From: a virus
IMG/VR virus record: IMGVR_UViG_3300042904_000368
Coordinates: 1-64,000 of that record
Direction: 5' to 3' (one strand)
DNA: 64,000 bases
Below are positions 14,273-62,952 of this stretch, in pieces. Position numbers and translations under genes: made by a program. The first letter of the stretch is position 1; every line of letters begins with the position of its first letter. A model generated the notes under the pieces. It did not search any database. It saw only the letters and a list, made by a program, of their open reading frames with translations, and was not told where the DNA came from.

Positions 14273-15105
14273 TGACAAGCGAAGCAGAACCAACCACCCC
14301 CGCCAGCGCGACCGAGCCGGGAGCGTGCCCTTCTTGTGGTGGCGAACGGCACTATGAGGAGCCGGAAGGCGGCGGAGTAGATACCGTGTGCTCCACCTGC
14401 GGGCGGCGTGGAGCCGGTGACGATCTGAAAGAGTATGTGGTAAGTCCCGCTGCCGAGCCGGGGGAGCCGGAGTGGTTGGTAGCGATGCGGGACCGAGCGA
14501 AGGAACGCCGGTTTGCCCTTGACGACCTGCCGCACCTCACCACGCTCCTGAATGAACACGCCTCCGCCCGCTCTCAGGTGGCGCGGCTGGAAGCAGAGTT
14601 GGGGGAGCAAGGGAGAGCGTTGGCAAGCGTGTGCCTACCCGGCGAGTCCCGCGTAGATTGCATCATTCGCCTCATCCGGGAGCGCGACGAAACGCAAAGG
14701 GAGTGGGAAATTCTGCGAGGCTGGCAGGAGTGTGTTCGTGCCGCCCTGGAAGGCGAAGAGGATGGCGCAGACGCCAACATTTTCGAGACAATCCGCCGCA
14801 TCGTTCGAGAGCGAGACATTGCTCATTCGCACATCCGCGCTGCCACCCAACCCCAGTCCGAACCCGCCGAGACGTGCAGCGAGTGCGAACGGCTGTATGG
14901 ACTAATGCGTGACTTTGCCAGCGCAGGCCGCGCCCTCGCTGATGCCAAGTATGCGGCAGGTCGTGCGAATGCTGAGTTGAGGGACGCAGAGGCGGCTAGC
15001 GGGCGTGTGGTGACGGCACTCTACGCTGAAGCGGCCCTACATCCGGCAACCGCCACCAACCAGCCGCCAGCCGGGGCGGAGCAGGCGGAGGTGAAAGATG
15101 TTTAA
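14272..15105 (+). CDS. Zinc-ribbon plus coiled-coil protein
   Basis: A 277-residue protein. Residues 18-45 hold CPSCGGERHYEE and CSTCGRRG, a classic zinc ribbon. From residue 90 to 235 it is a charged coiled coil, with repeated IRERDETQ and IVRERDIAH blocks and a further CSECERLYG pair in the middle. The layout resembles phage proteins annotated as Lar-like with a long tail. The C-terminus is Ala/Pro rich. It overlaps the next gene by eight bases. Confidence 0.8.
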   Translation: MTSEAEPTTPASATEPGACPSCGGERHYEEPEGGGVDTVCSTCGRRGAGDDLKEYVVSPAAEPGEPEWLVAMRDRAKERRFALDDLPHLTTLLNEHASARSQVARLEAELGEQGRALASVCLPGESRVDCIIRLIRERDETQREWEILRGWQECVRAALEGEEDGADANIFETIRRIVRERDIAHSHIRAATQPQSEPAETCSECERLYGLMRDFASAGRALADAKYAAGRANAELRDAEAASGRVVTALYAEAALHPATATNQPPAGAEQAEVKDV

Positions 15106-27092: not shown

Positions 27093-27117
27093 GGGGAGGT
27101 GGAAAAACCACCTCCCC
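27093..27117 (+). terminator. Strong hairpin between the ssDNA-binding and PrimPol genes
   Basis: GGGGAGGTGG (27093-27102) pairs exactly with CCACCTCCCC (27108-27117) around AAAAA. Only ATTTACC follows, so it is a poor terminator. It ends 20 bp before the PrimPol start and could also reduce or time translation of that gene, which has no visible ribosome-binding site. Confidence 0.5.
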
Positions 27118-27137
27118 ATTTACCCCCATACCTACCA

Positions 27138-29051
27138 ATGCCTTCTCTTACCCCTAACCTGGAAATCATACGGCGCACTCTGGAGCTAACAATGGCTCCG
27201 GGCGACGTGGCGGAACTACGGATTATCGGCACCCACCAGGGAACGGTGGCGGGATATTTCACGGACTGGAATAGTCTGGCAAAGGCAGCGGAACTTTGGG
27301 CGGATAAAGCTCCGGCCGTTTATTACACGCCTAACCCGGTACTTCCAGACCTTCTGGCGCGTGCGAACAACCGAGTGAAAGAACGGGTACGGGCTACGGC
27401 TAAAGACGAAGAGATTCAGCGGCGAGCCTGGCTTTTGGCTGATTTTGATCCAGCACGCCCAGCCGATATTTCCTCTTCGAACGTAGAGCATGAGGCAGCA
27501 ATCGCCACCGCTTGGGAGTGCGCTAAGTATCTGGTGAGCCTGGGGCTACCACAACCGTTAGTCGGCGACTCTGGAAACGGGGCGCATGTAATGTTGCGGG
27601 TTGACCTGCCGAATGATGCGGACGCCACGCGGCTCCATCAGGCCTTTCTTATCCACCTATCCGAGCGGTTCCAAACCGATCAAATCTTGGTTGACCAGGC
27701 CACCCACAACGCTGCCCGTATTTGGAAACTGTACGGAACCCTGGCCCGTAAAGGCGATTCGATTCCGGCGCGCCCGCATCGCCTCGCTCGTATCTTGCAA
27801 GAGCCGGATACACGAGTTTCCGAGACCGCACAACTCCTTTCCCTCTTCCCGTCCAAACCACTCCCCAAGCCCACCACAGCTCCAAGAAGTGCCCTCAACG
27901 GACACGCCGACCCTTCCACCCCTACTGGTGATTATTCAACGCTGGATGTGGTCGGTTGGTTCCGGTCAAAAGGCGCTTACGGCCGGGAATTAGACCCAGG
28001 CCAACATGCGGTTGACTGCCCCTGGATCGGTGAACACTCGCAGACGAACGACGCGACTCATTCCGATACGGTGGTCTACGAAGCGCAAGGCGGGGCGTGG
28101 CCGCAGTTCAATTGCCTTCACTCCCACTGCACCGGCCGGAAGATCGCGGACGTGATTGCGCTCTGGGGGGACGCTGGTAAGTTTTGCGGGAGCGAGTGGA
28201 AGGGCGGTGAGAGTTGGGATGTAGTCGCGCTGCGTGGCGAGAGGCCAAAGCCAGCCACCACCCCGCCCGCGCTCACCGATCTTCACCAGCGAGCAGAAGA
28301 TCTGGACGAGCAAACCCACACCCTTCTCGCGCAGTCTCGTCGCCCGAACCTGAGCGATATTCAGCCGCTCCGCATCGTCCTTACCGATCCGCCCACCTAC
28401 TACCCGACGATTAACGGCTATGAATTGGAGCTCTCCGCCCTCGACTTTCTGGAATGGCGACGGTTCAAAACCGCCTGCGTGAACCGGATGCAGTTCATGC
28501 CGATCCTGCCCGAAGTCCCACGCGGGCGCGGACAGGAAAAGCTTGCCCCGCAGCAGGTGTGGGACCAGTTCATTTCGGTTGCGCTGTCTCACTGCACTCT
28601 GGAAGACGCGCCTTCCGATGCCGGGGCAGAGGGTGCTGCCTGGGAGAGCGTGCGCGCCTTCATCCACCGCGAGAACCGAGGCCGAACGGAAGCGGTGGAT
28701 GTCGAGCGCGGACAACTCGCTACGATCAACGGCGCTTATCACTTCCGGGGACGACAACTCCGCAACTGGCTGGCACTCAACAGCCCTACTTCCCTGAAAG
28801 AACACGAGCTTTGGAAAGTGGTTCGCAAGCATGGCGGAACTCAGGCCGTCCTGAAGCCTTCTCGCAGCACCACCGTTCGCTGCTGGCGTATCCCGGAAGA
28901 AGCCTTGATTGAGACAGAAACGGTTACGCGGTTACATCCGGTTACGTCTGGAAGTGACCGCACATTTGAGCACGAAAAAGGGGCAGGTTACGCGGTTACG
29001 CCTCTTCCCTCACATGCGCCCGCGCGCGTAGATGCAGGCGTAACCGCGTAG
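27138..29051 (+). CDS. Archaeo-eukaryotic-type primase (PrimPol)
   Basis: A 637-residue protein. The N-terminal domain shows the AEP motifs: LADFDPARP (metal-binding acids), GDSGNGAHVMLR (the SxH motif) and NAARIWKLYGTLARKGD (third motif). This family makes primers and can polymerise. Later, CPWIGEHSQ, CLHSHC and a Cys-bearing segment suggest a zinc site, followed by a helical C-terminal region that may bind DNA; a helicase domain is not present, but an SF1 helicase follows. An upstream GTG at 27099 is in frame. The last 43 codons lie in the palindrome described for 28925-29114. Confidence 0.8.
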   Translation: MPSLTPNLEIIRRTLELTMAPGDVAELRIIGTHQGTVAGYFTDWNSLAKAAELWADKAPAVYYTPNPVLPDLLARANNRVKERVRATAKDEEIQRRAWLLADFDPARPADISSSNVEHEAAIATAWECAKYLVSLGLPQPLVGDSGNGAHVMLRVDLPNDADATRLHQAFLIHLSERFQTDQILVDQATHNAARIWKLYGTLARKGDSIPARPHRLARILQEPDTRVSETAQLLSLFPSKPLPKPTTAPRSALNGHADPSTPTGDYSTLDVVGWFRSKGAYGRELDPGQHAVDCPWIGEHSQTNDATHSDTVVYEAQGGAWPQFNCLHSHCTGRKIADVIALWGDAGKFCGSEWKGGESWDVVALRGERPKPATTPPALTDLHQRAEDLDEQTHTLLAQSRRPNLSDIQPLRIVLTDPPTYYPTINGYELELSALDFLEWRRFKTACVNRMQFMPILPEVPRGRGQEKLAPQQVWDQFISVALSHCTLEDAPSDAGAEGAAWESVRAFIHRENRGRTEAVDVERGQLATINGAYHFRGRQLRNWLALNSPTSLKEHELWKVVRKHGGTQAVLKPSRSTTVRCWRIPEEALIETETVTRLHPVTSGSDRTFEHEKGAGYAVTPLPSHAPARVDAGVTA

Positions 29052-29114
29052 ACGGGCGTGTATACGTGCGTAATTGTGCGGTCAGTCTCAAACGTAACCA
29101 GGTGTAACCGCGTA
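28925..29114. other. 190-bp three-part palindrome, candidate replication origin
   Basis: Three nested inverted pairs share exactly the same centre (29019.5): outer TACGCGGTTACA (28925-28936 with 29103-29114, 12/12), middle 35 bp (28940-28974 with 29065-29099, 28/35), inner TACGCGGTTACGCCT (28989-29003 with 29036-29050, 15/15). The unit GGTTAC/GTAACC occurs eight times. It overlaps the PrimPol end and stops 17 bp before the helicase start, a typical place for a replication origin. Binding by the PrimPol is inferred. Confidence 0.6.
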
Positions 29115-29130
29115 GACGAGGAGCAAACGA

Positions 29131-33039: not shown

Positions 33040-33874
33040 CGAATGGCTGGGCCACTTCCATCGCGGCGATTGCGTGGAAGTGATGCGCGGGCTTCCTGCG
33101 GAGTCGGTGGATTTGACGGTCACGTCGCCACCCTATGACAACGTGCGGACATACACGGGCGAGTACTCGTTCGATTATCCCGCAGTGGGTCGGGAGTTGT
33201 TGCGCGTCACCAAGGACGGCGGAGTGGCCTGTGTGGTCATTCAGGATGGGACGCAGGACTTCGCCAAGTCGCTCACCACAGCCAGGATGCAAGTCGCGTG
33301 GGTAGACGCTGGGTGGCGGTTGTTTGAATGTGTGATCTGGCGACGTTTCGGAGTGCCGGGAAATCACTGGGCTGGCCGATTCCGCGTTGACCATGAGTAC
33401 GTCTGCGTGTTCTTCAAGGGCGCAAAGCCTGCCCGCTTCGATAAGTCCGCGCTTCAGGTTCGCTCAATATCTGCAGGTCGGATGATGCATGGAAACCGGC
33501 GCAGACCAGACGGGACCGCTGAGTCGATGAAGCGCAATCTGGTCGCTGATCTGAAATGCCCCGGCACAGTCTGGGACATCAGTTCGCAGTTCAGGGGCGA
33601 CACCCTCAAAGCGGAACACCCGGCCGTCTTCCCCGAACGCCTTGCCGCCGATCTAATCCAGTGCTTTTCCCGCCCCGGTGACATCATCCTAGACCCCTAC
33701 TCGGGCAGTGGCACGACCTGCCTGGAAGCAGAGCGGCTAGGGCGGCGGTGGGCGGGAATCGACATCGGTGCAGAGTACGTCGCGCTCTCAGAGAGACGGC
33801 TGGAACGCCAACGGATGCAGCCCGCTTTGGCTCTCGATTTCGCCTCCGCACCCAGCGCGGGCGGGAGCCGGTGA
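33032..33874 (+). CDS. DNA methyltransferase, beta class
   Basis: A 280-residue protein with TSPPYDN (motif IV, residue about 31) first and DPYSGSGTT (motif I, residue about 210) last. This order is that of beta-class N4-cytosine or N6-adenine enzymes. The region between holds the target recognition part. No restriction partner lies near. Together with the enzyme at 23689 it suggests two layers of DNA protection or regulation. Confidence 0.85.
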   Translation: MGSEWLGHFHRGDCVEVMRGLPAESVDLTVTSPPYDNVRTYTGEYSFDYPAVGRELLRVTKDGGVACVVIQDGTQDFAKSLTTARMQVAWVDAGWRLFECVIWRRFGVPGNHWAGRFRVDHEYVCVFFKGAKPARFDKSALQVRSISAGRMMHGNRRRPDGTAESMKRNLVADLKCPGTVWDISSQFRGDTLKAEHPAVFPERLAADLIQCFSRPGDIILDPYSGSGTTCLEAERLGRRWAGIDIGAEYVALSERRLERQRMQPALALDFASAPSAGGSR

Positions 33875-33930
33875 GGAGCGCGGGCGACCGTATAGAGGGC
33901 AGATGGGCGGGGATTTTCAGGAGGTGCGAG

Positions 33931-34608
33931 GTGGCAAAGAGCGTGCGGGCAGAGTTTCAGATCGATCGACCAGACATCTCTGATGCGGAGTTGGGCAAGG
34001 CGTGGGGTATCGCCAAGCGGGTGCTCGCCCGGCACCTCCGACATGCGCCGTGGTGGATTGACCGCGAATCGCTGGAGGCGGCAGCGCGCGGAAGCTTCTG
34101 GCTAGCGGTGACCCGCTACGACCGGGCGCAGGCCGCGCAGCTTGCGTCCTACACCACCCGCGCCGTCCTGAACGGGTTGCAGGAAGAGGAGCGCGTGCAA
34201 AGCCCGTGGACGCGCCCACAGCAGGAGTTGGTGCGCGAGTATCGACGGGAGGGCCGAGAGCTAGAGCCGTGGATGCGTGACACCCTCTGGATCGACGCGC
34301 CGCTCCCTGCCGCTACAGGCTCCGGCAGCGTACTGCCTTCGGACGTGCAGGCCGCCACCACCGAAATCGACCGGGATGGGATGACCGAGGGGCTAGGCCG
34401 GGAAGCCCGGTGCGCCCTGGCGGCGCGGCTGTTAACCGCCGTGACTCCCCGCCACCGGGAGTTGCTAGTGCGCTACTTCTACGGCGAGCAGATCTTCCGT
34501 GACATCGGGAAGGCGATGGGCTTCAGCGAGTCGCGCGCGCACCAGCTCCGCAACCAGGCGTTCGCCACCATCCGCCAGGCGTTTCCGGGCGTGGAGGCGT
34601 TGCTGTGA
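33931..34608 (+). CDS. Phage RNA polymerase sigma factor
   Basis: A 225-residue sigma70-family protein, starting at GTG 33931 behind AGGAGGTGCGAG (better than the upstream GTG 33871). Region 2 is visible around residues 50-95 (ARGSFWLAVTRYDRAQ, ASYTTRAVLNGLQEE), region 4 around 165-220 (VTPRHRELLVRYFYG, FRDIGKAMGFSESRAHQ). Region 1.1 is absent, so it is a group 3/4 factor. It would direct host RNA polymerase to specific phage promoters, most likely those of the late genes. Confidence 0.8.
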   Translation: MAKSVRAEFQIDRPDISDAELGKAWGIAKRVLARHLRHAPWWIDRESLEAAARGSFWLAVTRYDRAQAAQLASYTTRAVLNGLQEEERVQSPWTRPQQELVREYRREGRELEPWMRDTLWIDAPLPAATGSGSVLPSDVQAATTEIDRDGMTEGLGREARCALAARLLTAVTPRHRELLVRYFYGEQIFRDIGKAMGFSESRAHQLRNQAFATIRQAFPGVEALL

Positions 34609-35785: not shown

Positions 35786-36244
35786 ATGTTGGCGCAAGAT
35801 ACTGAGTCACGACTGGCGCGGGCAAGCGTTCATTTCGGTTGGGGATTTTCCAAGGGCGTGATTGCCCGCCGAATGATCCTCGACGGCGTGGACGCGCAGA
35901 CCGTGGCGCGAGAAATCCATCGCCAACCGGATTACATCGACAAGGTACGCCGGGAGGCCAGCAACGAATTGCGAATGCTGGCAGAGATGGAAGCGCAAGA
36001 CCTTCCCGAAGTAATCTCCGCGCCACTAGAAGACCGCCAGGCACAAACGGACGGGGAACACGCCACCCTGCTTTATGACGTTCGCAAGAGCCAGCGCACT
36101 GGTAAATCAAGCAGCGGCCCGCAGCCGCTAGAAGGCGACCGGGACACGGTTTCCGCCAAGGTGGAAACGCGGGATTTGTGCCTGGAAGCTGTCCGCTATA
36201 TGCGCCTTAAAAAAGAAGCGCGAGAATTATTGCCTACTGGTTGA
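35786..36244 (+). CDS. Possible helix-turn-helix protein
   Basis: A 152-residue protein. Residues 18-60 (GWGFSKGVIARRMILDGVDA, VAREIHRQPDYIDKVRREA) look like a helix-turn-helix in which RQPDYIDKVRR would recognise DNA. The rest is acidic and flexible, with a basic helix at the end (AVRYMRLKKEARE). It is the last early gene, directly before a terminator, a good place for a late-gene regulator; that is inference. Confidence 0.65.
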   Translation: MLAQDTESRLARASVHFGWGFSKGVIARRMILDGVDAQTVAREIHRQPDYIDKVRREASNELRMLAEMEAQDLPEVISAPLEDRQAQTDGEHATLLYDVRKSQRTGKSSSGPQPLEGDRDTVSAKVETRDLCLEAVRYMRLKKEARELLPTG

Positions 36245-36277
36245 CGCCACCGAGGGTAAAAAGGATAGAATACAGCG

Positions 36278-36308
36278 GGAGCCAGTGTCTTTGATGTTGG
36301 CTCCTTTT
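36278..36308 (+). terminator. Rho-independent terminator of the early operon
   Basis: GGAGCCA (36278-36284) pairs with TGGCTCC (36298-36304) and is followed by TTTT. The loop of 13 bases is rather long but the stem is GC-rich. It ends the early region 34 bp after the last stop codon and precedes the tRNA. Confidence 0.7.
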
Positions 36309-36348
36309 CGATTCTCGTAGTGCGGCGACGGCTGATCCCCGTCCCGCC

Positions 36349-36420
36349 AGCACGATAGCTCAGTGGCAGAGTGACCGCTTGTTAAGCGGGAGGTCGGGGG
36401 TTCGAGTCCCCTTCGTGCAT
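36349..36420 (+). tRNA. tRNA-Asn (anticodon GTT)
   Basis: Acceptor stem pairs GCACGA with TCGTGC; D-arm GCTC...GAGT with loop AGTGGCA; anticodon arm CCGC-TTGTTAA-GCGG with anticodon GTT (Asn); T-arm GGGGG-TTCGAGT-CCCCT. All arms are present and normal in size. CCA is not encoded. It stands between terminators in a gap of over 600 bp between early and late genes. Phage tRNAs may help translate late genes rich in the matching codon (AAC/AAT). Confidence 0.85.
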
Positions 36421-36745
36421 TAGCAGGGGATAAGGCTTAACGCTGCATAGCGGGAGCGCTCCTTGTCAAACTCCCACTGCTAGCGAAATGCACGGTGAAG
36501 GCTCACCGTGGGCGCGGGCTGCTACGAACCAGCCTCACGCGCTTTCAATATTCGGGCTGAGGGGCAACCCCGGACGGGAAGGCCAAACCTCGTTCGTAAA
36601 CAGCGGCCTGGCAGCCGTTAGCTTTTTAAATGACTGGCAAATCTCCCTGGTTCACAGTCAGCCTGCGGGGCTTAACATCCCAAGGGTGAGAGCAGAGGGG
36701 CAGCCCGAATACTCCTAGGCCCGAAGCACTAACCCGCTTCGGGCC
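36421..36745 (+). ncRNA. Candidate structured non-coding RNA
   Basis: About 320 nt without any good reading frame. TATTCGGGCTG (36549-36559) pairs exactly with CAGCCCGAATA (36701-36711), closing a domain of about 160 nt that holds TGACTG/CAGTCA (36631-36636, 36655-36660) and AGCGGC/GCCGTT. Upstream, CACGGTGA/TCACCGTG (36491-36510) is a perfect hairpin. It ends in a terminator. Directly after a tRNA, it is like the large phage RNAs of the GOLLD type in position, although I see no shared sequence. Confidence 0.5.
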
Positions 36746-36748
36746 TTT
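36718..36748 (+). terminator. Rho-independent terminator after the structured RNA
   Basis: GGCCCGAAGC (36718-36727) pairs exactly with GCTTCGGGCC (36736-36745) around ACTAACCC, followed by TTT. The 10-bp stem and T-run make it the strongest terminator in this region. It separates the tRNA/RNA segment from the late operon. Confidence 0.75.
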
Positions 36749-36847
36749 CCCGTTTCTGGCCCACGAGCAAGACCAGCCCGAAGGGGAGCAGGTGTGCAAC
36801 CACCCACTCCCCCGTTACTGCCGACTCAGCAAGGAGCCAGCAGCACT

Positions 36848-36916
36848 ATGAGATACGGCCAACGCAGGCCCGCGTGCAACCTCCCGCTAGGTAATGTTCC
36901 GAAGGGCATATGCTGA
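36848..36916 (+). CDS. Possible 22-residue leader peptide
   Basis: ATG 36848, 12 bases after AAGGAGC, opens a 22-codon frame (start MRYGQRRPACN) whose TGA overlaps the start of the next gene. Such leaders can couple or time translation. The spacing from the ribosome-binding site is long, so the evidence is weak. Confidence 0.25.
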   Translation: MRYGQRRPACNLPLGNVPKGIC

Positions 36917-37341
36917 CGTGGCGGAACCGCTTTCGCATTCTCGCGGATTTCGGCACCCCGGAGGTGATCGAGTTCAAGGCGGGTGTTTCGGCGCTGAGCT
37001 GGGGCCTGTGGCTGCTCCTGCCAGGCGATATGTTCGCGCTGTACCCGCCGTTCTTCTTGGCGATGTCCAAGATCGCGCCCGAATGGGCGTGGGGCGCAGG
37101 GGTGGCAGCGACCGGCCTCGCGCAGATTTTCCTGTCCGCAACCCCGAATTGGGCCTGGCGTCGTTTTGCAGCGCTCCATGCCTGTGCGATGTGGGCCTTC
37201 CTGACCACGCTGTATCTCCTCGGCGAGTGGCGTGCGCCGGGGGTTGCTCTGGCCCTCACCCTCTCCGTGGCGAATGCCTGGGTGTTTTACCGCTTGAGGC
37301 GTTTCCATGCTGATGGTGAGGAAACGAGCCATGTCCAATGA
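36910..37341 (+). CDS. Multi-pass membrane protein, holin candidate
   Basis: A 143-residue protein with about four hydrophobic segments (around residues 27-45, 50-70, 78-98 and 100-125; for example GLWLLLPGDMFALYPPFF). It is the first gene of the late operon and starts just after GAAGGGCAT. Position before an endolysin fits a holin or envelope protein, but no holin family is recognised. Confidence 0.65.
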   Translation: MLTWRNRFRILADFGTPEVIEFKAGVSALSWGLWLLLPGDMFALYPPFFLAMSKIAPEWAWGAGVAATGLAQIFLSATPNWAWRRFAALHACAMWAFLTTLYLLGEWRAPGVALALTLSVANAWVFYRLRRFHADGEETSHVQ

Positions 37342-37741
37342 ATGGCTCAAGGAATACGCGCCCTGGGTTGCGGCTGTGGTCGCTCCTGTCACTGTCTGGC
37401 TAGGGACCCGCAAGAAGGTTGCTACCGACGCCGATATTTCACTACGCACCGATCTGCGCGAGACGGAGAAGTATCTCCGCCAGCAGCTTCGGGAAGTGGA
37501 GGCGGATAACAAGACGCTGCGAACCGAGAACCTGGAACTGAAGAACGCGAACATGACCCTGCGGGCGGAGTTTGAGGACCACAAGCGAGACACGGCGCGG
37601 GAGATCGGACAACTCAAAGACCAGCTTCAAGCCGCCCTTTCCGCAATGGATCGAGACCGCCGTAGCGGAGCGCACACTCAAGACGATCTAACCGCCCTTA
37701 CTGAGCGGGTGCGGGTTGGCGAAGAACACGACGCCCTATGA
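37331..37741 (+). CDS. Membrane-anchored coiled-coil protein
   Basis: A 136-residue protein with an N-terminal hydrophobic segment (WVAAVVAPVTVWLG) and a long coiled coil (residues 40-110; RETEKYLRQQLREVEADNKTL). This layout is like Rz-type inner spanins or holin-like accessory proteins of phages. It overlaps both neighbours by four to eleven bases. Confidence 0.65.
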   Translation: MSNEWLKEYAPWVAAVVAPVTVWLGTRKKVATDADISLRTDLRETEKYLRQQLREVEADNKTLRTENLELKNANMTLRAEFEDHKRDTAREIGQLKDQLQAALSAMDRDRRSGAHTQDDLTALTERVRVGEEHDAL

Positions 37742-38620: not shown

Positions 38621-39063
38621 GTGACCAGAACACCGCGCCGCCGATTACGGACACGCCGCCTAGTCAGCAGAAGGTTAGCTGGGCGGCTGCCGTTTCTTTC
38701 GGCCTAGGCCTGCTCGCTATCGCCCCGGAAGCGGCCCAACATCTTCTCCCTTTCGTCGCCGAGAAGGATCGCCCGCGTGTTCTCGCGTTCGCGGCCCTTT
38801 GCAGCCTGCTGGCGGGGCAGTTGCTCAACCGGAAGGCTACGAGTAACCTGGCAGGCTACACGCTGCCCCTTGCGCCTCGGATGGCGCAGGCGGAGCGCAA
38901 AGCCGTGGCTGCGGAAGTCAAAGCGGAGCAAGTGGCCGAGAACCTGGCGCAGAAGGAAAGTGGGCTCACCGCTGACCTCATCGCGAGGGGAACGGGAAAC
39001 GCACCGCCGCCTTCAACCCCCGGCCCTGGCTTGGGAACGCAGTTGAGAGAGATTGACGGATGA
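38617..39063 (+). CDS. Putative holin-like membrane protein
   Basis: A 148-residue protein from ATG 38617. Residues 20-75 hold two hydrophobic segments (WAAAVSFGLGLLAIAPEAA, LAFAALCSLLAGQLL); the second half is a charged coiled coil followed by a Pro-rich end. The layout resembles class II holins with an extended tail. It directly precedes the endolysin gene. Confidence 0.6.
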   Translation: MSDQNTAPPITDTPPSQQKVSWAAAVSFGLGLLAIAPEAAQHLLPFVAEKDRPRVLAFAALCSLLAGQLLNRKATSNLAGYTLPLAPRMAQAERKAVAAEVKAEQVAENLAQKESGLTADLIARGTGNAPPPSTPGPGLGTQLREIDG

Positions 39064-39836
39064 GCAGCATTGGCAGATATACGGGCCGCGCGACCGGGGG
39101 AAACCCCGGTTTTCCTTTGCTTGTCCGCAATGGCCGTATCCCGCAAAGCTTGCTCCGTCGCCTGGAAACGCAACCGCAGATGCCTGAAGGCGAGCGGTGG
39201 CTGTTCAGCGATGCTGCTATCGGCCTGGATGCCATGGTGCGGGCGGCTGCTCTCGATGGCGTAACGATTGAACTATTGGAAGCCTACCGCACCTATGCCC
39301 GGCAGGTCTACTTCTGGAACCTCTATCAATCCGGCAAGGGGAACCTCGCAGCGCAGCCTGGCACCTCGAACCATGGGTGGGCCGTGGCGATTGACGTCAA
39401 ACGGAAGAACAACCCGAAGGCTTTGCCATGGATGCGCCTCCACGCCGACGAATACGGCTGGGACCTTCCCGACCAGTTAGGCAAGAAAGAGCCATGGCAT
39501 TGGCAGTGGATACGCGGCTTCAAGCTAGAGGCTGCACTACCCAAGCCCAAGCCAACCCCGGTCTACATCCATGGCGAGTTGGTCCCCGGCGCGTTCCATT
39601 CCAAGAAGGGCGACTCCAACATCCTCTTCCTGCGCCCGGTGGTCGAAGAGTTGGGCTGGGATGTGCTGACGGCTGAAGGGGCGACTGTTCACCTGGAGCA
39701 CGACGACACAGAGCGGAAGTTGACCCTGGAACTGCACAAAGCTGCCGATGGACGTGCTATCTCCCCTGCCCGCGACCTCTGCGCCAAGTTAGGCGTGGAG
39801 TGCGAGTGGCGGGATGGAGCAGTGAGGATCGGTTGA
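39060..39836 (+). CDS. Endolysin, M15-type peptidase
   Basis: A 258-residue protein. Residues 60-160 form a VanY/L-Ala-D-Glu-type M15 peptidase: AYRTYARQVYFWNLY, then PGTSNHGWAVAIDV with zinc-binding His and Asp, and PWHWQWIRG with the last zinc ligand. The C-terminal 80 residues contain two repeats of a stalk-like copper-amine-oxidase-N type domain (VYIHGELVPGAFHSKKG; RAISPARDLCAKLGVE), probably for cell-wall binding. It cuts peptide bridges of the peptidoglycan at the end of infection. Confidence 0.85.
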   Translation: MSSIGRYTGRATGGNPGFPLLVRNGRIPQSLLRRLETQPQMPEGERWLFSDAAIGLDAMVRAAALDGVTIELLEAYRTYARQVYFWNLYQSGKGNLAAQPGTSNHGWAVAIDVKRKNNPKALPWMRLHADEYGWDLPDQLGKKEPWHWQWIRGFKLEAALPKPKPTPVYIHGELVPGAFHSKKGDSNILFLRPVVEELGWDVLTAEGATVHLEHDDTERKLTLELHKAADGRAISPARDLCAKLGVECEWRDGAVRIG

Positions 39837-40128: not shown

Positions 40129-40758
40129 ATGGATCTGAAGAGACCCCTTCCGCCCGCAGACCTGTCGAGCGAACTGCGTTACCCAGAGGGTTTTGATCCT
40201 GCGCCCGATGTCGAGGAGTGGCTGCGAAAGAGCTTCATCGAAGACGGTGGGCCGCTACACAACCCAGACCACTCCCATCTTTCCCTTGCCAGCATCGGCA
40301 TCCTGTGGACGAACGCACCGAACTCCAAGCAGATGCGGGGAGTAGCGGGAACGGCAGAGCAGCCGTCAATTCAGGGCGGAAAGTGGTTGCGCGCGCGGAT
40401 GGAGTTGCAGCTAGCCGAATGGTTCGGTGACGTGCCCGACTTCCTGATTACGCTCGACGCGGTATACGCCGCGCAGGTGCCAGATGCGACCTTCTGCGCC
40501 CTGGTTGAACACGAGCTTTACCACTGCGCCCAGCGATTAGATGAGTTCGGAAGTCCCCGGTTCACCAGGGAAGGCAAGCCGGTTCTAGCTATTCGCGGCC
40601 ACGATGCGGAAGAGTTTGTGGGCGTGGTGCGACGGTATGGCGTCGGAGCCGCAGCAGGCGGAGTGGCGGAGTTGGTGAAGGCGGCGAATGAAGTTCCCTC
40701 GGTGGCTCGCGCAGCTATCTCCCTGGCTTGCGGGACGTGTGCCCGGGTGGTGGTTTAG
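40129..40758 (+). CDS. Putative metallopeptidase
   Basis: A 209-residue protein. HELYHCAQ (residues about 128-135) gives an HExxH zinc-binding motif, followed by the later HDAEEFVGV, which could supply a third ligand. This matches small phage metallopeptidases found next to terminase genes. GAGAGAAGATC precedes ATG 40129. It may process a head protein or the host, but this is unknown. Confidence 0.65.
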   Translation: MDLKRPLPPADLSSELRYPEGFDPAPDVEEWLRKSFIEDGGPLHNPDHSHLSLASIGILWTNAPNSKQMRGVAGTAEQPSIQGGKWLRARMELQLAEWFGDVPDFLITLDAVYAAQVPDATFCALVEHELYHCAQRLDEFGSPRFTREGKPVLAIRGHDAEEFVGVVRRYGVGAAAGGVAELVKAANEVPSVARAAISLACGTCARVVV

Positions 40759-40775
40759 GTTTACCTTGGTTTACG

Positions 40776-41306
40776 ATGGCACAGCTAACTGACGCGCAGA
40801 AAACCTTCGTTGTGGTGCGTCTGGCGTGCTTTGACCAGCCTTCCGAAGTGGTGGAGGCGGTAAACCAAGATTTCGGTGTTCAGTTACCGCGCCAGCAGGT
40901 GATGAAATACGATCCGACCACCAAGTCAGGCGAGAACCTTTCCGCTGAACTGAAAGAGCTTTTCCACTCCACCCGCGAACGCTTCCTGTCCAACGTGCAG
41001 GAAATCCCCATCGCCAACCAGGCGTACCGGCTGCGAGAGTTGCAGAAGCTCTACCAGACGGCACCCAAGGCCAACGCGCACCTGCGAGCCAACCTGCTTG
41101 AACAGGCCGCTAAAGAATCGGGCGGCGCGTTTACCAATAAGGTGCAAGTCTTTCAGCAGTTGGCGCGGGACGTAGAAAAGTTGTCGGATGCAGACCTACT
41201 CGCCCGGATTGTCGGAGGCGGAGCTCCTCCAGCGGTTCTACCGGGCGGAAGCCCTACGCCGGGGCTGGTCGTTGCCAACGGTAACGGTAAGCACTCGGGC
41301 CAGTGA
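40776..41306 (+). CDS. Terminase small subunit (DUF2280-like)
   Basis: A 176-residue protein. LTDAQKTFVVVRLACF and FGVQLPRQQVMKYDP follow the DUF2280 pattern, which includes phage small terminases with an N-terminal helix-turn-helix. The C-terminal third is helical and then Gly/Pro-rich. It recognises packaging sites with the large subunit, whose gene starts inside it (119-bp overlap). Confidence 0.75.
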   Translation: MAQLTDAQKTFVVVRLACFDQPSEVVEAVNQDFGVQLPRQQVMKYDPTTKSGENLSAELKELFHSTRERFLSNVQEIPIANQAYRLRELQKLYQTAPKANAHLRANLLEQAAKESGGAFTNKVQVFQQLARDVEKLSDADLLARIVGGGAPPAVLPGGSPTPGLVVANGNGKHSGQ

Positions 41307-42849
41307 GCCGAGTCACGAACGCGCCAAGCAAAAAGCCCTCCGTTCTTTTGCTCACTTCCTCAAGCATCACGTTCACATCGCGGACGGCGGCGGCACGAAA
41401 ATGGAGCCGTGGTCTTGGCAGGTGGACCTGGCGGCCCGTCTCCCTGGCATTCAGCGGCTCGTAATCCTGAAGGGTCGCCAGCTTGGCGTTTCCTGGCTGG
41501 TCGCTGCTTATGCAGTGTGGAAGGCGCTACGGGATCGCGGTTCACTGATCTTGCTGGTGTCCCAGACGGAAGACGATGCCATAGAGCTTCTGGGGAAGGC
41601 GCAATGCGTCTATGACCATCTGCCAGCCTTCCTGAAGCGACCGGATGAAATCTCAAAGGTTCGGAGCCTCGCGTTCAAGGAGCATCGTTCGGCAATCGTC
41701 GCCCTTCCATCCACGCGGAGAGCCGGTCGTGGTCGCACCGCGCGGTTGGTAATTGCCGACGAGCACGCGCTGCATCAGTGGGCGGAAGCGAACTTCGCGG
41801 CTCTGTCCCCCACGGTAGATGCGCCGGGCGGGCAGTTCATCTCTGTTTCTACCGCTGACGGCATCGGGAACACCTTCGCGGATTTGTGGGCCAAAGGCAC
41901 GGAAAAGACCGGCGTCGTTTTGCCGAGGCGTGAGGGCAACACCTGGCGCGTGCGGCGAGAGTTGCGGAAGGTAAACCCGCCGCAAGATGGGTGGGTGCCA
42001 CTGTTCCTGCCCTATGACGTGCGGCCTGGTCGGGATGCTGGCTGGTGGGAACGCAAGCGCGAGGCGAACCCTCGCCCCAAGCTGCACTTCCAAGAGTATC
42101 CCCGCGATGCCGAGGAAGCCTTCGTTCAAACGGGGCGACCGGTGTTCGATAAGGACTACCTGGAGAAGCACAAACTTTGCTTTGAGGAGCCGCTGTCAAA
42201 AGCTGAGTGGCCGGAAGAGTTCGCTCGCTGGAAGCCCGCGGAACTGAAGGTCTTCGCCTTGCCCGACCCCTCTCATCGCTACGTAGCAGGTGCGGACGTG
42301 GCTGAGGGGCTGGAACATGGGGACTATTCCGCCTTGACCATCCTCGATACTGACGACCCCTCTGGCACCCCCGCCGAGGTGTTGACCCTGCACGGCCACT
42401 GGCCTGCGGATGTGTTCGCCGAGATGGTGAAGACGGTTTCGGATGTTTACCCCGGCACTTATGGCATCGAGCGCAACAACCACGGTTTAGCGGTGCTGGT
42501 GACGGTGAAGCGGCTGCGAATGAAGGGTGTCTATACCGAGCGGCCTGTTTTGAATAAGGCAGGGCAAGAGATCGAGCCGGGGCGGCCCGGATGGTTGACT
42601 ACTGCCACGACGAAACCCCTGCTCATTGACGATCTGGAAGAAGCTCTGCGGAACTTCAAAATCCGCCTCCGCGATGCAAGCAACCTCACAGAACTGACCT
42701 TCTACCAAACGCTCGCCAACGGCTCCACCTCGGCTCCAGCCGGTCGTTGGGATGATCGCGTGATGGCCTTGGGGATTGCCTGCCAGATGATTAAACGAGC
42801 CAGGAAAGCCCCGCAGTTCTTCGGGTCTTGGGGAAGGGGTGGCGCGTGA
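41188..42849 (+). CDS. Terminase large subunit
   Basis: A 553-residue protein. The Walker-A-type loop LKGRQLGVSWL (about residue 97) and Walker-B-type LVIADEHAL (about residue 190) give the ATPase; AGADVAEGLEHGDYSAL, YGIERNNHGL and DDRVMALGIA supply the acids of the RNase-H-like nuclease. It drives DNA into the prohead and cuts at completion. The start inside the small subunit gene is long; the first 40 residues are coding-like, so the overlap appears real. Confidence 0.9.
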   Translation: MQTYSPGLSEAELLQRFYRAEALRRGWSLPTVTVSTRASEPSHERAKQKALRSFAHFLKHHVHIADGGGTKMEPWSWQVDLAARLPGIQRLVILKGRQLGVSWLVAAYAVWKALRDRGSLILLVSQTEDDAIELLGKAQCVYDHLPAFLKRPDEISKVRSLAFKEHRSAIVALPSTRRAGRGRTARLVIADEHALHQWAEANFAALSPTVDAPGGQFISVSTADGIGNTFADLWAKGTEKTGVVLPRREGNTWRVRRELRKVNPPQDGWVPLFLPYDVRPGRDAGWWERKREANPRPKLHFQEYPRDAEEAFVQTGRPVFDKDYLEKHKLCFEEPLSKAEWPEEFARWKPAELKVFALPDPSHRYVAGADVAEGLEHGDYSALTILDTDDPSGTPAEVLTLHGHWPADVFAEMVKTVSDVYPGTYGIERNNHGLAVLVTVKRLRMKGVYTERPVLNKAGQEIEPGRPGWLTTATTKPLLIDDLEEALRNFKIRLRDASNLTELTFYQTLANGSTSAPAGRWDDRVMALGIACQMIKRARKAPQFFGSWGRGGA

Positions 42850-47686: not shown

Positions 47687-47712
47687 AAGCAGCCTTTGCG
47701 GGCTGCTTTTTT
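47687..47712 (+). terminator. Rho-independent terminator
   Basis: AAGCAGCC (47687-47694) pairs with GGCTGCTT (47701-47708) and leads into TTTT. It follows the protease gene by 28 bp and precedes the highly expressed capsid genes. A promoter for these genes is not evident. Confidence 0.75.
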
Positions 47713-50183: not shown

Positions 50184-50217
50184 AGGGAGCGTGGATAGCC
50201 CACGCTCCCTTTCTTTT
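50184..50217 (+). terminator. Rho-independent terminator after the capsid block
   Basis: AGGGAGCGTGG (50184-50194) pairs exactly with CCACGCTCCCT (50200-50210), followed by TTCTTTTT. It is one of the strongest terminators in the window and separates the capsid genes from the adhesin block. Confidence 0.85.
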
Positions 50218-56893: not shown

Positions 56894-57183
56894 TGCCTAC
56901 ACCCTTTCGCATCCGGGCAGAAGGTCCGGGTATTCCCACCCTCCTCGATCTCGAAAAACTGGAAGCCGACCGGCACCTGATTGAGGGTTGGCACTACGGG
57001 AAGCGGCTGGAGGAGATGGAAGGCCAGCATTACGGCGCGGCCTACATGTTCCACGCGATAGACCAGCACGCTTTATGGGGGCTGACTTACGCGGAGCGCG
57101 GCGACTGGCTGCGCGCGAAATACGGGCTGGATACCGAGGGGGCTGTGATTTCCACAGCCCCCTCTTCTGATTCTAGGGGGTAA
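56893..57183 (+). CDS. Small neck/tail protein
   Basis: A 96-residue protein with a beta-type first half (PFRIRAEGPGIPTLLDLEK) and aromatic helices (IEGWHYGKRLEEMEG, YMFHAIDQHALWGL). Its 3' end contains a strong hairpin at 57136-57172. Probably a neck or tail-terminator protein by position. Confidence 0.65.
   Translation: MPTPFRIRAEGPGIPTLLDLEKLEADRHLIEGWHYGKRLEEMEGQHYGAAYMFHAIDQHALWGLTYAERGDWLRAKYGLDTEGAVISTAPSSDSRG
57136..57172 (+). terminator. Terminator hairpin inside the end of a gene
   Basis: GAGGGGGCTGTG (57136-57147) pairs exactly with CACAGCCCCCTC (57153-57164), with TTCTGATTCT after it. The stem lies in the last 16 codons of the preceding gene, so transcription could end before or shortly after its stop codon. 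It may also only protect the mRNA. Confidence 0.55.
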
Positions 57184-62922: not shown

Positions 62923-62952
62923 AGCCGCCCTTACCCGAGGCGGCTTTTTCTT
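62923..62952 (+). terminator. Rho-independent terminator
   Basis: AGCCGCC (62923-62929) pairs with GGCGGCT (62939-62945), then TTTTCTTT. The loop is 9 bases. It ends the main tail transcript. Confidence 0.75.

Follow-up and report, generated by a model that had tools for sequence, protein, structure and literature searches.

A probable folded RNA between tRNA-Asn and the late genes of a phage, and its possible role as a late-operon leader

The late leader of phage lambda involves the 6S RNA, the terminator tR' and the antiterminator Q. Another structured phage RNA, Proteo-phage-1 (RF03044), reportedly takes its name from a 2017 survey by Weinberg and colleagues, and a full-text literature search for 'Proteo-phage-1' matched no paper. 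ROOL and GOLLD are often found near phage tRNA islands, have no known functions and, in the case of GOLLD, include many members of more than 800 nt, according to PMC12286853; an earlier structured-RNA survey is given in PMC2864571. HK022 putRNA is described in PMC9378689 as a nascent phage RNA that folds and, unaided, suppresses termination; it serves the early genes. IsrK of the Gifsy-1 prophage has a short form that ends at a terminator and a read-through form that is an mRNA; the action of IsrK lies in the translation of this mRNA, and AntQ, which is encoded upstream of IsrK, is raised indirectly (PMC4825925).

Here we describe positions 36421-36745 (the stretch) of the first 64,000 nucleotides (the window) of an IMG/VR virus record with a length of 64,803 bases and a G+C content of 61%. 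According to an original prediction, the DNA that separates tRNA-Asn from the late operon yields a structured non-coding transcript, and this claim is backed by folding, by the lack of a coding signal and by the lack of protein homologues (Table 1). The reading that we favor, with a probability of about 0.4, is that the late operon of the phage has this stretch as its 5' leader or attenuator. A late-operon leader with a terminator-like hairpin is the best-supported role, and the switch proposed with it is hypothesized from one sequence. It is favored over a GOLLD- or ROOL-like RNA because of the complementary arms around the 3' hairpin and because of its position.

Table 1. Features of the locus and of the predicted RNA (window coordinates)
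Feature	Coordinates	Strand	Evidence
Sigma-like protein	33748-34608		
152-aa ORF, function unassigned, last gene 5' of tRNA	35786..36244	+	codon score 0.265
Terminator-like hairpin GGGAGCCA..TGGCTCC with TTTT tail, between 152-aa ORF and tRNA	36277..36305	+	terminator scan
tRNA-Asn (GTT), CCA not encoded	36349..36420	+	ARAGORN; Rfam RF00005 57.1 bits
P1 domain; outer stem 36421-36426/36477-36482 starts at first base past tRNA	36421..36482	+	pair probabilities 0.79-0.94
P2, perfect 8-bp hairpin CACGGTGA-AGGC-TCACCGTG	36491..36510	+	pair probabilities 0.87-1.0
P3, hairpin in two parts (6 + 5 bp)	36511..36543	+	pair probabilities 0.76-1.0
Arm a (TATTCGGGCTG); possible partners b, c, e	36549..36559	+	complementarity, pair probabilities
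Multibranched domain enclosed by a.b	36560..36700	+	MFE, pair probabilities
Arm b (CAGCCCGAATA), 11 bp with a	36701..36711	+	complementarity, pair probabilities
3' hairpin: arm c GGCCCGAAGC 36718-36727, arm d GCTTCGGGCC 36736-36745	36718..36745	+	pair probability 0.98-1.0
Arm e (CAGCCCGAA), second copy of b core, 28 nt past hairpin	36774..36782	+	complementarity, pair probabilities
First late gene, 143 aa, phrog_8980 (unknown)	36910..37341	+	PHROG match, codon score
VanY-like peptidase, probable endolysin	39060..39836	+	PF02557 E 8.7e-14
Putative phage metallopeptidase	40129..40758	+	PF18894, phrog_513
DUF2280 protein, small-terminase position	40728..41306	+	PF10045 E 2.7e-36, phrog_546
Large terminase	41188..42849	+	homology matches

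Locus, coding potential and relatives

The stretch lies in a gap of 666 nt (36244-36910) without a convincing protein gene that also holds tRNA-Asn(GTT), whose end at 36420, as called by ARAGORN, is immediately 5' of the stretch. On the 5' side are genes for a DNA methyltransferase and for a protein in which a Sigma70 region 4 domain was recognized. On the 3' side follow, in order, the 143-aa protein, the VanY-like peptidase, the metallopeptidase, the DUF2280 protein, the large terminase, and the portal, minor head and major head proteins. The locus is a junction at which an upstream block gives way to lysis, packaging and head genes. The 143-aa late protein shows a weak likeness to membrane proteins from Streptomyces phages, and the 152-aa ORF had no match in Pfam, no significant match in PHROG and no relative among viral contigs; a structure model of the latter as a candidate HTH regulator was uninformative (pLDDT 47), and the candidate was dropped. 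A promoter scan returned one promoter-like site versus 1.4 expected, and thus no convincing promoter. A shared promoter motif, GATTCTCG, was rejected, with two exact copies only and, for a longer motif with three mismatches allowed, five matches versus 4.98 expected.

The absence of a good reading frame from the stretch, as originally claimed, was borne out: the codon score of the 76-aa ORF at 36488-36718 is 0.044, and the ORF lacks a Shine-Dalgarno sequence. With 13 long ORFs within the window as the training set, the six frames of the stretch scored from -0.178 to 0.003, compared to 0.376-0.398 for four downstream late genes and 0.183-0.306 for five upstream neighbors; a low score (0.051) was also obtained for another short ORF (74 aa at 37738). 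The 76-aa ORF had no Pfam match at E <= 5, no PHROG match better than E 0.064 and no relative among viral contigs. A protein gene was rejected on the codon scores, and leader-peptide attenuation via the 76-aa ORF was rejected on account of the absent ribosome site and a codon score near zero. In all likelihood the stretch does not encode a protein, and it is probably a folded RNA.

In Infernal searches of Rfam, which had been proposed as a check, tRNA alone matched at the gathering score, and no other known family was found. Up to E 10 (36250-36900) nothing convincing appeared, with GOLLD, ROOL and Proteo-phage-1 unmatched, and riboswitch models, including T-box, gave only cobalamin on the opposite strand (E 9.6; 8.9 bits versus a cut-off of 31.5). 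When 651 nt were compared to phages by blastn at its 'distant' setting, all of the matches listed (20 of 159 records) fell on the tRNA, as did all of those listed for plasmids (20 of 74 records); a 340-nt query returned nine phage records at E 4 and no RNA homologue. Searches with the 152-aa, 143-aa, terminase and 76-aa ORFs singly found no related locus. Sets of relatives were then defined by alignment of the portal (80 kept of 96), the metallopeptidase (best 80 of 586) and the terminase (best 80 of 508; 15 loci; 37 genome loci). Among the matches listed, the closest terminases were 53-58% identical (contigs L257, L258 and L177/L259). No further window gene matched these contigs (19 genes tested), and when all ORFs of at least 60 aa were tested against them, the only other matches were ORFs overlapping the terminase; more distant contigs gave a minor-head match (L178) and a methyltransferase match (L181). 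The searched collections, from which records very near the window's own may be missing, yielded no close relative of the virus.

Short-word local blastn gave no match in 175 loci or in 80 loci, and, in a set of 51 loci, three chance-level matches (29-42 nt; E 0.36-0.97). Single-sequence covariance models were built for 36548-36712 (R1) and 36421-36545 (R2) and scanned against 97 loci besides the window, a set exclusive of the portal set L014-L093, of L094-L096 and of L182 and up; R1 had no other match there and R2 had one weak match (L157, E 0.32). R1 gave one part-match (E 0.19) in 18 whole records and one match (E 0.0035 per genome) in 398 genomes, the latter overlapping long ORFs and taken as chance, and a DNA search of four genomes and of 398 Pseudomonadota-phylum genomes found no homologue. 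With no homologue in any collection searched, covariation speaks neither for nor against the RNA, and the terms "conserved" and "new class" are unsupported.

Structured RNAs do occur at the same address in a minority of phages, as Proteo-phage-1 demonstrates. Among the 80 IMG/VR records whose metallopeptidases are nearest, its model exceeded the cut-off in six (0/40 and 6/40), and two further IMG/VR records reached E <= 0.001 below the cut-off; since 74 of the 80 lack it over the cut-off, it is not the rule there. Six of seven sources were detected by the model (L012, L150, L156, L161, L164 and L166). In phiAH14a, Proteo-phage-1 follows NinG and an unknown protein and lies directly 5' of a holin. 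Around Proteo-phage-1, about 300 nt of DNA are 78-89% conserved among L150 (5947-6330), L012 (4601-4902), L156 and L161; this conserved DNA outruns the 82-position Rfam model and reaches a terminator-like stem, and the RNA may extend further than the Rfam family that describes it.

The regions that follow tRNAs in other metallopeptidase phages were considered as the same RNA as that of the window and rejected, each having local structure and no sequence match; a similarity between L008 and L155 looks protein-coding. Over 26 tRNAs (duplicates and the window counted), the z score of the post-tRNA fold ranged from -6.8 to 1.2. Strong local structure occurs directly 3' of tRNA-Met in three metallopeptidase phages (L131 3247-3571, L155 6911-7235 and L099 3646-3970), which match neither one another nor the window in sequence.

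Folding of the stretch

The minimum free energy of 36421-36745 is -138.1 kcal/mol (z -3.57), which none of 100 shuffles equaled; a repeat shuffle run gave z -3.66. The stretch ranks third among 196 tiled 325-nt windows of the + strand, and one of the two windows of the same genome with lower z overlaps a repeat-rich ORF end. By part, z is -1.79 for P1, -3.31 for P2 plus P3, -2.25 for the multibranched domain and -4.25 for the 3' hairpin region. Without the 3' hairpin it is -2.41 (equaled by two of 100 shuffles), and the opposite strand and the 164 nt 3' of the hairpin have z -2.27 and -0.59. The structure signal is real but moderate, and this division of z places much of it in P2/P3 and the 3' hairpin.

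Two of the stems originally named, the 11-bp helix 36549-36559/36701-36711 and the 8-bp stem 36491-36498/36503-36510, proved perfect. The third, of 6 bp (36631-36636/36655-36660), exists but has a pair probability of only ~0.2 in the RNA as bounded in that prediction. Hairpins predicted within the multibranched domain are GGG-GCAA-CCC (36561-36570), one of 8 bp (36571-36596) and one of 6 bp (36602-36619). A perfect helix of at least 11 bp was present in two of 60 shuffles.

Such a fold could belong to a free structured small RNA that is made together with tRNA-Asn, freed by tRNA 3' processing, ended by the 3' hairpin, and active in trans or in an RNA complex, a mode of action that others have suggested for phage RNAs linked to tRNAs. 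The P1 stem starting directly past the tRNA, the whole-RNA z of -3.6 and the hairpin at the 3' end are all consistent with this, and a late promoter of its own would fit into the 164 nt from the hairpin to the first late ORF; ROOL and GOLLD, moreover, are often near phage tRNA islands (PMC12286853). We nevertheless regard a free small RNA as unlikely, given that neither Rfam nor the collections searched yielded a match or homologue and that arm e, although complementary to such an RNA, would not be part of it.

The same figures bear on a plainer explanation, an ordinary G+C-rich trailer consisting of a tRNA 3' flank and an intrinsic terminator, with no further function and with helices due to chance. 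The z of only -2.41 without the terminator hairpin, the 11-bp perfect helices among the shuffles, the two windows of lower z, the variable folding after other phage tRNAs and the failure to find conservation all suit a trailer. The rank of third among 196 windows, the gap of 666 nt without a convincing protein gene and a cluster of interlocking arms that 4000 local shuffles did not reproduce (see below) argue against it, and we hold this explanation to be rather unlikely.

The 3' hairpin and its complementary arms

The "strong terminator" claimed for the 3' end was confirmed in part. The stem is strong, with 10-11 perfect bp, but the U-tail (TTTCCCGTTT) is poor, the hairpin is not among the seven sites of the terminator scan, and its d'Aubenton-Carafa score is +3.0 or -9.3 depending on the choice of stem end. 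From its sequence, the hairpin is probably a terminator, moderate at best and weak-tailed. Elsewhere in the window, terminator-like hairpins at 47687-47708, 50184-50210, 57136-57164 and 62923-62945 lie just 5' of probable late-gene ribosome sites. Hairpins with a positive score by the same formula make up 11 rows at five places, including 39093, all on the + strand and none on the - strand; late transcription may have to pass terminators.

A 7-base core, GCCCGAA/TTCGGGC, is present in 10 copies in the 64 kb, five of which lie within 36551-36783 as complementary arms. The copies start at 36551, 36703, 36719, 36738 and 36776, with irregular spacing, and the TTCGGGC orientation is found in the 64-kb window at arms a and d only. 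That complementary arms are grouped in this way about the 3' hairpin is a new observation, absent from the original prediction. Arm a can pair with c (36551-36557 with 36719-36725, plus an AGG/CCT block) and with e (9 bp); c.d comprises 10 bp and d.e 8 bp. The alternative helix a.c uses a terminator arm and, in silico, competes with both a.b and c.d.

The mixed five-copy cluster arose in 0 of 4000 local shuffles and, anywhere, in 3 of 200 whole-window shuffles. In real DNA, 34 mixed five-copy 7-mer clusters, some of them overlapping, were counted in 306 loci and 3.67 Mb (~1 per 108 kb), and because of this rate the chance of a cluster in a 489-nt stretch is nearer 0.5% than 1 in 4000. Three such clusters were inspected, two of which are, by our own reading, iteron-kind arrays of short inverted repeats. 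A DNA operator array, in which a phage regulator (the 152-aa protein or the sigma-like one at 33748-34608) would bind GCCCGAA half-sites and so govern late transcription, would account for five copies in both orientations and for the perfect 10-8-10 dyad with a weak U-tail formed by c and d, but the complementarity outruns the 7-base core (11, 9 and 10 bp), which suits RNA arms better, and the copies are irregularly spaced, making such an array improbable.

Other repeat arrays were noted in passing. Six GGTTACG/CGTAACC cores in both orientations occupy 28921-29115, where ORF 27099-29051 ends and a gap leads on to the gene of a UvrD-like helicase; this array appears iteron-like and is a possible replication origin. 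GAGCCGG occurs five times in a single orientation within an ORF at 14314-14470. Iteron-like short repeats (GTAGTCA, AGTGCCA) in both orientations are also found at L126 7160-7440 and L119 6385-6640, at long-ORF ends upstream of the metallopeptidase.

Pairing of arm a was modeled for RNAs with different ends. For RNAs starting at 36421, a.b had a probability of 1.0 at 3' end 36712, a.c of 0.79 at 36730, and a.b and c.d of 1.0 each at 36746-36760. With further extension a.e reached 0.95 at 36785, 0.25 at 36800 (a.b 0.75), 1.0 at 36830 (a.b 0.00) and 0.76 at 36909. Starting at 36349, with the tRNA included, a.c was 0.13 at 36730, a.b 1.0 at 36746-36760 and a.e 0.99 at 36830. For RNAs from 36279, a.b was 0.88 at 36712 and a.c 0.05 at 36730, and a.b was 0.91 and 0.70 at 3' ends 36746-36760. 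For all 5' ends, c.d was 1.0 at 36746-36760 and a.e was 0.99-1.0 at 36830. In these models, the partner of a hinges strongly on the chosen RNA ends. Forced-helix energies at 36730 placed a.c ahead of a.b by 2.0 kcal/mol in the RNA from 36421 and behind it by 1.3 kcal/mol in that from 36349. At 36815, a.e plus c.d exceeded a.b plus c.d by 4.7 or 2.5 kcal/mol. At 36760, a.b plus c.d was ahead of a.c by ~15 kcal/mol, so the hairpin would be the default and antitermination would need an outside factor.

A proposed late-operon leader and its counterparts

In reading the stretch as a late-operon leader, we set beside its observed position, its non-coding state, its helices in silico and its excess of arms a model in which transcription, termination, switching and a regulator are inferred. 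Transcription would start 5' of tRNA-Asn, cross the folded leader and enter the hairpin, where most transcripts would end or stall short of the genes for lysis and packaging. Arm a would pair first with b, closing the multibranched domain and leaving c free for the terminator hairpin c.d, the predicted default (off) state. If a were kept off b, it could take c and block the terminator, and once the polymerase was past the hairpin, a could shift to e. Candidates for the signal behind the shift are a protein of the phage, an antitermination factor that acts on the RNA, or an RNA acting in trans. Excision of the tRNA from this one transcript would leave the terminated leader as a small RNA. The full version of this late switch, in which one strand is handed from b (sensor closed, terminator allowed) to c (antiterminator) and on to e (read-through), on the same transcript as tRNA-Asn and with the multibranched domain sensing an infection-cycle signal, is a long shot.

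If the leader is real, a phage lineage to which our searches linked no close relative would show late control by an RNA switch, and an orphan RNA would be added at a site, immediately 5' of the lysis and packaging genes, used by some phages for structured RNAs, prompting a systematic look. If the structure is due to chance, nothing follows.

The likeness to GOLLD and ROOL drawn in the original prediction is that of a phage structured RNA near tRNA genes; adjacency to a phage tRNA is its sole basis, and neither Rfam model matches at E <= 10. The window RNA is, in addition, ~325 nt long, versus more than 800 nt for many GOLLD members. Proteo-phage-1 is closer in placement, being likewise a phage structured RNA between an upstream block and lysis, metallopeptidase and terminase genes. 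It can also lie near tRNAs (followed by tRNA-Gly in L164, preceded by tRNA-Val in L150) and has a terminator-like stem after it in aligned relatives, but it differs from the window RNA in size and sequence, with no model match up to E 10. Gifsy-1 IsrK resembles the proposed leader in its layout of terminator and read-through. HK022 putRNA offers a possible mode of action for the window RNA, although put serves early genes. In the window, no Q-like protein was recognized adjoining the RNA (Pfam, PHROG), and the proposed leader is larger than that of lambda and carries a tRNA; like the lambda late leader, however, it would be a terminator-ended leader between regulatory genes and a lysis and packaging operon.
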